Source: PVC group bacterium (lineage in GTDB: Bacteria; Auribacterota; Erginobacteria; Erginobacterales; PUNC01). From it: a stretch of DNA of 50,033 nucleotides. Below are positions 25,649-30,779 of the stretch, piece after piece. The stretch covers positions 1 through 50,033 of the forward strand of contig PUNC01000175.1 in NCBI GenBank assembly GCA_003551625.1. Direction: 5' to 3'. Numbering within the stretch: position 1 is the first letter of the stretch; every line of letters begins with the position of its first letter. The translations under genes were made by a program, and so were the position numbers. The notes under the pieces are model-generated. The model was not told where the DNA came from and did not search any database. It saw nothing but the letters and a program-made list of their open reading frames with translations.

Positions 25649-27286
<1,638 letters not shown>

Positions 27287-27310
27287 TTACTCCTTTCGGT
27301 TTTTGGTTCT

Positions 27311-27598
27311 CTATTCCAGGATGGCCAGAATGTCGTCCTGGCCGATGACCAGATACTCTTCGTCACCGACGTTGATCTCGGTCCCCGAGTATTTCCCGAT
27401 CAGCACCCGGTCCCCCTTCTTCACCTCGAAGGGGACTTTCTTTCCCTCGTCATCAACCTTGCCGGTGCCGAGGGCCACCACTTTGGCCTCCATCGGCTTT
27501 TCCCGGGCCGTGTCGGGGATGATGATATCGCCCTTCTTGACTTCTTTCTCCTCCAGGCGCTGAACCAGTACCCGGTCTCCCAGGGGTTTGATCTTCAT
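27311..27598 (-). CDS. groES: Co-chaperonin GroES
   Basis: [46 protein letters not shown]. Confidence 0.98.
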
Positions 27599-27741
27599 AT
27601 CCCTATTTCCTCCTTTTTCATTTCTTCAACTGCGGCAGCAGTCTCTGCTGATTGACATCGCGGCGACTCGCCGGCACGGATCTTCCCTTCGACCGTTATT
27701 CACCTCCTTTCCGGGAATGGATCGGCGAATCAGTCCGGTTT

Positions 27742-29667
27742 CTACTTCTTGTCCTTATCCTCGTCGTCGACCTCGAACTCGGCGTCGATGACCTCGCCTT
27801 CCGGAGGAGTCTCGCCGCCGCCGGGCGGCGGGGGCGGGGGCGCCTCTCCGGAGGGGGGACGCTCGGCCGACGCCTTCCGGTACATCTCCTCGCTGACCTG
27901 ATGCCAGGACCGGCTGAGGTCCTCGGTGGCCGCCTTGATCTCGGCCGCGTCATCCTTCTTGAGGGACTCCTTCACCCTTTCGATGGCGGCTTCGATCTTG
28001 GACCTGGCTTCGGGATCGATCTTTTCGGCGTTCTCCTTGAGCAGTTTCTCGGTCTGGAAGACGGCCTGGTCGGCCTGGTTGCGGGCGTCCACCTTCTCCC
28101 GGGCCGCCCGGTCCTCGTCGGCGTGTTCCTCGGCTGCCTTCACCATCTTCTTCACGTCATCCTCGCTCAAACCGCTGGAGGCGGTGATGGTGATGTTCTG
28201 TTCCTTGCCGGTGCCCAGATCCTTGGCGGAGACGCTCAGGATACCGTTGGCGTCGATGTCGAAGGTCACCTCGATCTGGGGAACGCCCCGGGGGGCTGGA
28301 GGAATCCCGGTCAGATGGAAACGGCCGATGGTCCGGTTGTCCCGGGCCATCTCCCGCTCCCCCTGAAGCACGTGAATCTCCACCTGGGTCTGGGAATCGG
28401 CGGCGGTGGAGAAGATCTCGCTCTTGCGGGTGGGAATCGTGGTGTTGCGGTCGATCAGCTTGGTCATCACGCCGCCCAGGGTCTCGATCCCCAGCGAAAG
28501 CGGGGTGACGTCGAGAAGAAGAACATCCTTGACATCGCCCTTGAGCACGCCGGCCTGAATCGCCGCGCCGATCGCCACCACCTCATCGGGATTGACCCCC
28601 TTGTGAGCTTCCTTCTTGAAGAAGTTCTTTACCGTCTCCTGCACCTTGGGCATCCGGGTCATCCCCCCGACCAGAATCACCTCTTCGATCTCGGAGGTCT
28701 TGATCCCGGCGTCCTCCAGGGCCCGGCGGCAGGGGGGAATCAGCCTCTCGATCAGGTCTTCCACCAGCTGCTCGAGCCGGGAGCGGGTCAGCTTCATCGA
28801 CAGGTGCTTGGGCCCGGAGGCGTCGGCGGTGATAAACGGCAGGTTGATCTCGGTCTCCATCGCCGAAGAGAGTTCGCACTTGGCTTTCTCGGCGGCTTCC
28901 TTGAGCCGCTGCAGCGCCATCGAGTCCTGCTTCAGGTCGATCCCCTGATCCTTCTTGAACTCCTCGGCGATCCAGTCGATCACCCGCTGGTCGAAGTCGT
29001 CCCCGCCGAGGTGGGTGTCTCCGTTGGTGGATTTCACCTCGAAAACCCCCTCCCCGATTTCCAGGATGGAGATGTCGTAGGTGCCCCCGCCGAGGTCGAA
29101 GACCGCGATCTTCTCGTCCTTTTTCTTGTCCAGGCCGTAGGCCAGCGAGGCGGCGGTGGGCTCGTTGATGATCCGCAGCACCTCCAGGCCCGCGATCTTG
29201 CCGGCGTCCTTGGTGGCCTGGCGCTGGCTGTCGTTGAAGTAAGCCGGAACCGTGATCACCGCCTGGGTCACCTTCTCCCCGAGATAAGCTTCGGCGTCCT
29301 GCTTGAGCTTTCTCAAGATCATCGCCGAAATCTCCGGAGGGGAATAGACCTTGTCGCCGGTTTCAACCCGGGCGTCGCCGTTTTCGGCCTCGACCACCTT
29401 GTAGGGAACCAGCTTGATCTCGGAGCCGACTTCGCCGTAGCGCCTCCCCATAAAACGCTTGATCGAAAATACGGTATTGGCGGGATTGGTTATCGCCTGC
29501 CTCTTGGCCGGCTGGCCGACCAGCCGCTCCCCCGTCTTGGTAAAAGCCACCACCGAAGGCGTCGTCCGGCCCCCTTCCGCGTTGGGGATCACTTTCGGAT
29601 CCTTGCCTTCCATAACCCCGACGCAGGAATTGGTAGTCCCTAAATCGATTCCTATAACCTTGGGCAT
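27742..29667 (-). CDS. dnaK: Molecular chaperone DnaK (Hsp70)
   Basis: [21 protein letters not shown]; start at 29667 preceded by aaggaggaagag Shine-Dalgarno; full Hsp70 motifs. Confidence 0.99.
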
Positions 29668-29721
29668 CTCTTCCTCCTTATGATGAGCGTGAAATTTAAC
29701 AAAATTCTCCAATCCTCAAAG

Positions 29722-29737
29722 AGCAATAAGCATGCCA
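29722..29737 (-). promoter_or_regulatory. Sigma-54 (-24/-12) promoter upstream of dnaK
   Basis: Reverse complement reads TGGCATG-CTTA-TTGCT (consensus TGGCACG-N4-TTGCW); GG and GC separated by exactly 10 nt; ~55 nt upstream of dnaK ATG. Confidence 0.7.
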
Positions 29738-29768
29738 GTTAACCGACAGGAGGGGCCGAAAGGGTTTC

Positions 29769-29798
29769 TTGATCATATGTTATTGCCCGGCATATAAT
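29769..29798 (+). promoter_or_regulatory. Sigma-70-type promoter: TTGATC-N18-TATAAT, divergent from dnaK
   Basis: ttgatc 29769-29774; tataat 29793-29798. Confidence 0.55.
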
Positions 29799-29804
29799 TA
29801 AATC

Positions 29805-29967
29805 TTCCGTATTCTGCGGACACCGGGGCGGTCCGGGGGAAAAACAGTAGCGTAAAGTTACAGTTCTGTCTTGGTGGACACATTTGACACACTTCGGGCC
29901 GTCAGCCGCGGTCGCCGGCGGCGGACGAAAAAAAAAGGCGGCGCCGAAATACGGCGCCGCCTTTTAG
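29805..29967 (+). ncRNA. Candidate ~160-nt small RNA (promoter to terminator, no supported ORF)
   Basis: Downstream of the promoter at 29769-29798, ends at the hairpin at 29928-29965; contains several local stem-loops (cggac...gtccg; gtagc...gttac; gccgc...gcggc). Confidence 0.35.
29928..29965. terminator. Bidirectional intrinsic terminator downstream of the cold-shock gene
   Basis: aaaaaaaaa-ggcggcgccg-aaata-cggcgccgcc-tttt. Confidence 0.88.
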
Positions 29968-29987
29968 GTTTGATGTCGATTACGCGA

Positions 29988-30185
29988 TTAAAGCGGGGTG
30001 ACGTTGACGGCTTTTTCGCCCTTGTCGCCCGTTATCAACTCAAACTCAACCTCCTCACCTTCCTTCAGGGTGCGGAAACCGGAAGTTGTGATCCCGGTAT
30101 GATGCACGAACACATCTCCACCGCCTTCCTTCTCGATGAAGCCGTACCCTTTTCTGTCGTTAAACCACTTCACTTTACCTTTCAC
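29988..30185 (-). CDS. Cold-shock domain protein (CspA family)
   Basis: [35 protein letters not shown]1/RNP2 motifs; GTG start with aaaggaggt upstream. Confidence 0.97.
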
Positions 30186-30223
30186 TTACTAATACCTCCT
30201 TTTGGTAAAGTTTTCGGTCAAAT

Positions 30224-30255
30224 AAAAAAACCACAAAGTCGACCACCCTTTGCGG
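30224..30255 (-). terminator. Terminator-like hairpin between cdd and csp (possible csp leader attenuator)
   Basis: Reverse complement CCGCAAAG-N9-CTTTGTGG-TTTTTTT, only ~38 nt upstream of the csp start. Confidence 0.7.
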
Positions 30256-30314
30256 CTTGAACTAACATAAAAGTAAATTCTGTCATTTGTCCGTCCGCCA
30301 ACCTCAGCGTGGAC

Positions 30315-30343
30315 AGAATCTCACGGCGGAGAATATTTGTCAA
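30315..30343 (-). promoter_or_regulatory. Putative sigma-70 promoter for csp: TTGACA-N17-GATTCT
   Basis: Reverse complement reading; perfect -35, weak -10; located between cdd stop and the hairpin. Confidence 0.45.
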
Positions 30344-30353
30344 TAGCAAATTT

Positions 30354-30779
30354 TTACGTCTTTTTATCGCCGGAGAGCAGGTGAAAAGGGCTGAAGGGAT
30401 GGGGATAAAGTTCGGCCAGGGTGGTCTCCCGGGATTTCCCGTCCTTGCCGGTCGCTATGATCAGCATCTCCCCGCGGTTGAACTCGATCAGAGCCTGCCG
30501 GCAGAGAGCGCAGGGGAAAGGCGGATACTCGGCGGGAGTGAATACCGCCAGGGCGAGAAAGTTTTTTTCGCCGGCGGCCACCGCCGAGGCGATCGCCGTC
30601 ATCTCGGCGTGGAGGGTGATGGAAAGCGCGGCGTTCTCCACGTTGCAGCCGCGGTAATAATTTCCGCGGTCGGTCAGCAGAGCCACGCCGACCCGGTAGC
30701 CGGAATAGGGCGCGTGAGCGTTCGGCATCGCCGTCCGGGCCAGCTCGATCAACTTTGTTTTCTCTTCCCGACCGATCAT
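30354..30779 (-). CDS. cdd: Cytidine deaminase
   Basis: NAHAPYSGYRVGVALL, NVENAALSITLHAEMTAI (HAE), PFPCALCRQAL (PCxxC). Confidence 0.93.
   Translation of the reverse strand: MIGREEKTKLIELARTAMPNAHAPYSGYRVGVALLTDRGNYYRGCNVENAALSITLHAEMTAIASAVAAGEKNFLALAVFTPAEYPPFPCALCRQALIEFNRGEMLIIATGKDGKSRETTLAELYPHPFSPFHLLSGDKKT

Follow-up and report, generated by a model that had tools for sequence, protein, structure and literature searches.

A terminator in a csp leader, surrounded in related genomes by a covarying helix, as a candidate regulatory RNA outside Rfam

Beyond a few model species, little is known about how cold-shock protein (csp) genes control themselves. In Staphylococcus aureus, the 113-nt 5'UTR of cspA contains a long hairpin whose cleavage by RNase III raises stability and translation, according to the passages of PMC3386247 drawn on here. 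The Csp proteins of Escherichia coli have been reported as antiterminators, with CspA, CspC and CspE acting at metY-rpsO and CspD at SgrS and tnaC (passages of PMC11648934 and PMC9765468). For Bacillus subtilis CspB, the consensus binding sequence is GTCTTTG/C (PMC7825780). Here, we describe a csp leader whose layout recurs in several phyla, and we compare it with these systems.

The window, which is the whole 50,033-nt stretch of DNA analyzed, is a contig of a metagenome-assembled genome from Candidatus Auribacterota, with Candidatus Erginobacter occultus as the nearest named relative. On its minus strand, priA and cdd (30354-30779) are followed by a gap, csp, and dnaK-groES-groEL; within 25649-30779, csp lies directly upstream of dnaK, groES and groEL, and these four genes share a single strand. 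The initial annotation reported a CCGCAAAG-N9-CTTTGTGG-T7 hairpin about 38 nt before the csp GTG, which is indeed what the sequence contains. The core (P2) pairs CCGCAAAG (30255-30248) with CTTTGTGG (30238-30231) across a 9-nt loop, an AAG/UUU extension gives a hairpin with an 11-bp stem at 30258-30228 (-12.8 kcal/mol), and the distance from the U-tract to the GTG is 38 nt (30223-30186). The hairpin does not appear in the output of our terminator scan because the scan allows loops of 3-8 nt. A GC-rich stem with an immediate run of five to nine U residues marks an intrinsic terminator, and here a GC-containing stem-loop runs at once into U7. On sequence grounds, we regard the terminator in the window leader as secure.

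The promoter proposed in the initial annotation, TTGACA and GATTCT separated by a 17-nt spacer at 30343-30315, is also present on the minus strand upstream of the hairpin. Its order of promoter, U-tailed hairpin and csp GTG holds as well, as does its ~120-nt leader with a terminator inside, given an inferred start ~123 nt out (Table 1). With the promoter before the terminator, everything on one strand, and csp directly downstream, the gene order is that of a leader attenuator. Same-order relatives have a sigma-70-like promoter at a distance similar to that in the window. We rejected a weaker candidate, CGGACA-N18-TATGTT, from which the transcript would begin at the hairpin and which was not seen in relatives.

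Two further observations concern the surroundings of csp. An 8-bp perfect inverted repeat, ACUUUACC (30204-30211) and GGUAAAGU (30172-30179), would put the csp Shine-Dalgarno sequence and start codon in a hairpin loop; it forms in the predicted fold with the coding start, and its conservation within the order is not apparent. On the plus strand, a promoter-like site (TTGATC-N18-TATAAT, 10/12 matches) within 29769-29965 is aimed at the back of csp and, together with the nearly symmetric 3' hairpin of csp at 29933-29965, might produce a short plus-strand RNA of ~160 nt.

Table 1. Features of the csp locus, in window coordinates.
Feature	Position	Strand	Basis
-35 TTGACA, 6/6 matches	30338..30343	-	Sequence; promoter in relatives
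-10 GATTCT, only 3/6 matches	30315..30320	-	Sequence; relatives' promoter at similar distance
Inferred transcription start, ~123 nt 5' of start codon	30308..30310	-	Inference, ~7 nt past the -10
P1 5' arm CGGACAAAUGA, tentative	30283..30293	-	MFE fold; duplex test p 0.083
P1b, predicted small hairpin separating P1 from P2	30259..30280	-	MFE fold; class B leaders share topology
P2 terminator hairpin (core 30231-30255)	30228..30258	-	-12.8 kcal/mol; conserved and covarying in relatives
U-tract U7, directly 3' of hairpin	30224..30230	-	Sequence; kept in relatives
P1 3' arm UUAUUUGACCG, tentative	30215..30225	-	MFE fold; duplex test p 0.083
Shine-Dalgarno AGGAGG of csp	30195..30200	-	Sequence
csp, 65 aa, GTG start at 30185	29988..30185	-	ORF list; CSD domain Pfam PF00313, 4e-27
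csp's own 3' terminator, 14-bp hairpin and U-tract	29933..29965	-	Terminator scan

A direct DNA search with the window leader gave no match beyond its own genome, so relatives were gathered through the Csp protein. The hairpin recurs ~35 nt before csp in all four same-order relatives, with differing upstream sequence (e.g., AAACCGCAAAGTTCCCCATAACTTTGTGGTTTTTTT in L006). Across the phylum, a U-tailed hairpin lies upstream of 40 of 53 csp genes and is missing from 13, compared to 11 of 112 control genes (other genes with an upstream gap of at least 120 nt; Fisher 3e-17) and 12 of 212 shuffled sequences. When a sigma-70-like promoter before the hairpin is also required, the counts are 37/53 for csp versus 2/112 for controls (Fisher 8e-22) and 7/212 for shuffled sequences, a comparison that supports the transcription attenuation suggested by the initial annotation. 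Among csp upstream regions fetched via the Csp protein, the same layout is found in Omnitrophota (22/29), in an Elusimicrobiota-titled genome, and in a Desulfobacterota-like phylum (9/34), and no such terminator was found in those fetched from Firmicutes.

An alignment of 27 leaders (A1) shows that in distant relatives P2 is enclosed by an outer helix, P1, in which GUAGUAAAUAA pairs with UUAUUUACUAY. P1 runs from the inferred 5' end of the RNA to a closing arm just beyond the U-tract. Standard pairs occupy 95% of cells in P2 and 87% in P1, with compensatory changes in 5/8 and 6/10 pairs, respectively; these figures were reached in 0/500 shuffles, and pairing in slid controls was 34-48%. The P1 counts came from naming this helix explicitly, because gaps in the full alignment hid P1 from RNAalifold, which recovered P2 alone. 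A duplex test independent of A1 detected P1 (p<0.05) in 24/57 leaders versus 3/24 ordinary 3' terminators (Fisher 0.01). A T-run of at least five lies between the arms in 29 of 31 leaders picked by their P1 arms alone, a set that is not fully independent, as part of it came through the covariance model described below.

The architecture varies among relatives. In same-order leaders of family f2, an A-tract/U-tract helix instead lengthens P2; its closing arms are GUCGA/UCGAC in L005 and GUCG/CGAC in L006. A three-way junction of P1, P1b and P2, matching the topology of the minimum free energy (MFE) fold of the window, is predicted in several Desulfobacterota-like leaders and in most class B leaders, i.e., those whose hairpin sits between roughly -140 and -100, among them the second csp of the window genome (L002). 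The class B alignment is misaligned in P1 and was left out of the pair counts.

Several leaders carry additional elements. In family f9 (L122, L123, L124, and L126), we see by eye a second structure between P1 and the Shine-Dalgarno sequence, GGGAGGC/GCCTCCC (L124 has GGGAAGC/GCTTCCC), and perhaps a GGCAC/GTGCC pseudoknot, which could be a further regulatory domain. Four Omnitrophota leaders (L204, L209, L211, and L222) have, by eye, a second module after the terminator hairpin; its arms may pair with that of P1 on the 3' side (TCATTGTTTGCC with GGCAGGTAAAGATGA), suggesting a second switch. In L196, also from Omnitrophota, the 5' arm is fused straight to the Shine-Dalgarno sequence, as if the leader had been deleted. 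A second Desulfobacterota-like csp type (L178, L180, L186, L187, and L188) has a different conserved leader, by eye GGGTTT...AAACCCC with flanking arms and no U-tract. The leader 5' ends of L005 and L006 (GGCTCC and CCTCC) are predicted to pair with the csp Shine-Dalgarno sequence (GGAGG), so translational control is possible there. Near csp in another same-order relative, L007, positions 2799-2844 of the minus strand match the Rfam Acido-Lenti-1 RNA (RF01687, 45.8 bits).

We built a covariance model of the csp leader (R1; 88 positions, P1 and P2), which at E<=0.01 matches 57 of 117 Omnitrophota genomes. For 30 of the Omnitrophota genomes the locus of the best match was fetched, and every one of these 30 loci lies before a csp ORF of the same orientation. 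In a separate R1 search, 13 of 16 matches precede csp and the remaining three are weak (<34 bits); the non-csp matches L264, L267, and L268 (<34 bits) were treated as noise. Scores in other families of the phylum run from ~36 to 82 bits. Some of the leaders that R1 found also went into building it, so the scores of those leaders are not independent, whereas the genome-wide specificity of R1 for csp is. Among the 15 genomes from outside the phylum in that separate search, R1 gave one weak non-csp match; it also matches 2/5 genomes in the phylum of G059. None of the scanned leaders matched an Rfam 15 family, and literature searches of partial coverage returned no report of a terminator in a csp leader. 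The recurrence of this layout before csp in related and distant phyla probably reflects a regulatory RNA rather than the tail of a neighboring gene. Regulation of csp through a leader terminator that is enclosed, in relatives, by a covarying helix is outside Rfam and unreported in the papers searched.

How closely does the window copy follow this pattern? The only R1 match in the 50 kb is the csp leader (30203-30288), but the match is weak (20.3 bits, E 0.16), and the P1 register of R1 differs from that of the fold. When the first codons are included in folding, P1 vanishes because the sequence after the U-tract, including ACUUUACC, pairs with the coding start GGUAAAGU. A long 5'-terminal hairpin in a UTR of ~110-125 nt is found in relatives; for the window, P1 is tentative, and we tentatively place its leader as a divergent member of the R1 family.

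We favor the view that csp leaders carry a conserved transcription attenuator, an intrinsic terminator kept by selection. Transcription would start near 30309 and either stop at ~30224, giving a short leader RNA of ~85 nt, or continue into csp. The read-through RNA of most relatives would fold into a 5'-terminal rod or three-way junction, with P1 closing over P2. The 3' arm of P1 lies just past the U-tract and is transcribed only once the polymerase has read through, which would confine P1 to the read-through mRNA and leave it no direct control over termination. Rather, P1 could mark the full-length mRNA and, as a closed helix at the 5' end, protect this mRNA from decay or direct its processing, with the terminated RNA left open.

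In the main rival, the leader is not chiefly a terminator: it would be a structured UTR at the 5' end that governs translation, the stability of the mRNA or its processing by RNase III, and Csp would bind the U-tract. The long, RNase III-cleaved hairpin of S. aureus cspA is a precedent in the passages cited (PMC3386247). The position of P1 from the inferred 5' end around P2, its limitation to read-through RNA, and an Omnitrophota leader (L195) that keeps P1 and has lost the P2 terminator hairpin are all consistent with such a role. Against it, a GC-rich stem followed immediately by U5-U9, which is what an intrinsic terminator looks like, is kept across phyla, and we consider this rival rather unlikely.

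If the leader is an attenuator, what would decide read-through? No antiterminator competing with the P2 5' arm is conserved in 94 leaders (mean p 0.52). One candidate, pairing of a RUCUU motif with the P2 5' arm, was attractive by eye in Omnitrophota and failed the shuffle test on these 94 leaders. Folding the window leader at 5-37°C predicted no structural switch, and P2 is predicted to be more stable in the cold (-19.7 at 10°C compared to -12.8 at 37°C), which is the wrong direction for simple thermal relief. The initial annotation had read the hairpin as an attenuator-like element in csp's own leader, which stands, but its temperature-dependent antitermination is unsupported given the 94-leader test, the unchanged fold and a hairpin that is firmer in the cold; it had also missed the outer helix of the relatives. 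The same results weigh against a protein-free RNA thermosensor, in which temperature toggles the leader between terminated and read-through folds. Such a sensor would suit a gene of the cold-shock family, and E. coli cspA mRNA is one, as cited in PMC3890552, yet here no switch is predicted, the P2 5' arm has no conserved alternative pairing, and no scanned leader matches the Rfam cspA element, making a thermosensor improbable.

With neither a conserved antiterminator nor a predicted temperature switch, any regulation of read-through by the proposed attenuator needs a protein or RNA polymerase kinetics. Protein-dependent attenuators require no antiterminator pairing. If read-through is regulated, Csp is the obvious candidate; it possibly controls the attenuator and may itself set the level of read-through. 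The loop adjacent to P2 would expose pyrimidine-rich single strands (the U-tract and, in a subset, RUCUU) of the kind that Csp proteins bind. RUCUU occurs just before P2 in 21/64 leaders, where segment shuffling expects 1.7 for the slightly looser UCUU, and it is similar to the CspB consensus of B. subtilis. RUCUU is missing from the window leader, so in this case the regulator is one we infer. It is tempting to go further and see in the leaders of Omnitrophota, Auribacterota, the Elusimicrobiota-titled lineage and, in a related form, some Desulfobacterota-like lineages an undescribed RNA family, with a helix-enclosed terminator as an autogenous csp switch in which Csp binding decides read-through and its own level. 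This fuller proposal is speculative, and we hold it as possible rather than probable.

A simpler explanation, raised in the initial annotation as the case against its own reading, is that the hairpin terminates only cdd, with csp transcription starting downstream of 30224. The cdd gene is co-directional and ends ~95 nt 5' of the hairpin, which could serve both genes. However, the hairpin is kept beside csp whatever the upstream gene, unrelated or divergent. The upstream ORF varies, and the nearest one is divergent in ~25/111 leaders (an approximate count from mechanical ORF prediction), and thus the hairpin is not simply the terminator of the upstream gene. In addition, the U-tract leaves merely 38 nt before the GTG, and the conserved promoter sits upstream of the hairpin. 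The csp-linked conservation and the varied, often divergent upstream genes make termination of cdd alone very improbable. A chance hairpin without function, which a single genome with a weak R1 score could by itself have left possible, is contradicted by conservation, i.e., the csp-versus-control counts, the covariation of P1 and P2, and the R1 matches before csp, and can safely be dismissed.

A terminator conserved in the csp leaders of several phyla would be a natural cis target for Csp antitermination. The csp leader would be a compact module, testable in vitro or in E. coli, and a family that Rfam 15 lacks, from phyla nearly without RNA annotation.

Compared to known systems, the leader resembles that of S. 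aureus cspA in its described features: both combine a csp gene, a 5'UTR of ~115 nt, and a long 5'-terminal hairpin, tentative in the window, before the Shine-Dalgarno sequence, though what the passages of PMC3386247 describe for the S. aureus hairpin is RNase III processing, not termination. The Firmicutes csp upstream regions that we fetched differ in having no such terminator. Like the E. coli cspA thermosensor (RF01766), this is a structured csp leader, but it has no Rfam match and no predicted temperature switch, and translation is the step that the E. coli element controls (cited in PMC3890552). The parallel to E. coli Csp antitermination lies in the intrinsic terminators; Csp modulation is reported there and would be an extension to csp leaders, and the targets described in the passages of PMC11648934 and PMC9765468 do not include the leader of a csp gene itself. 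Lastly, unlike leader attenuators, no competing antiterminator was found and the terminator is enclosed by the long-range helix P1; like them, these leaders run in the order promoter, leader, terminator, gene.
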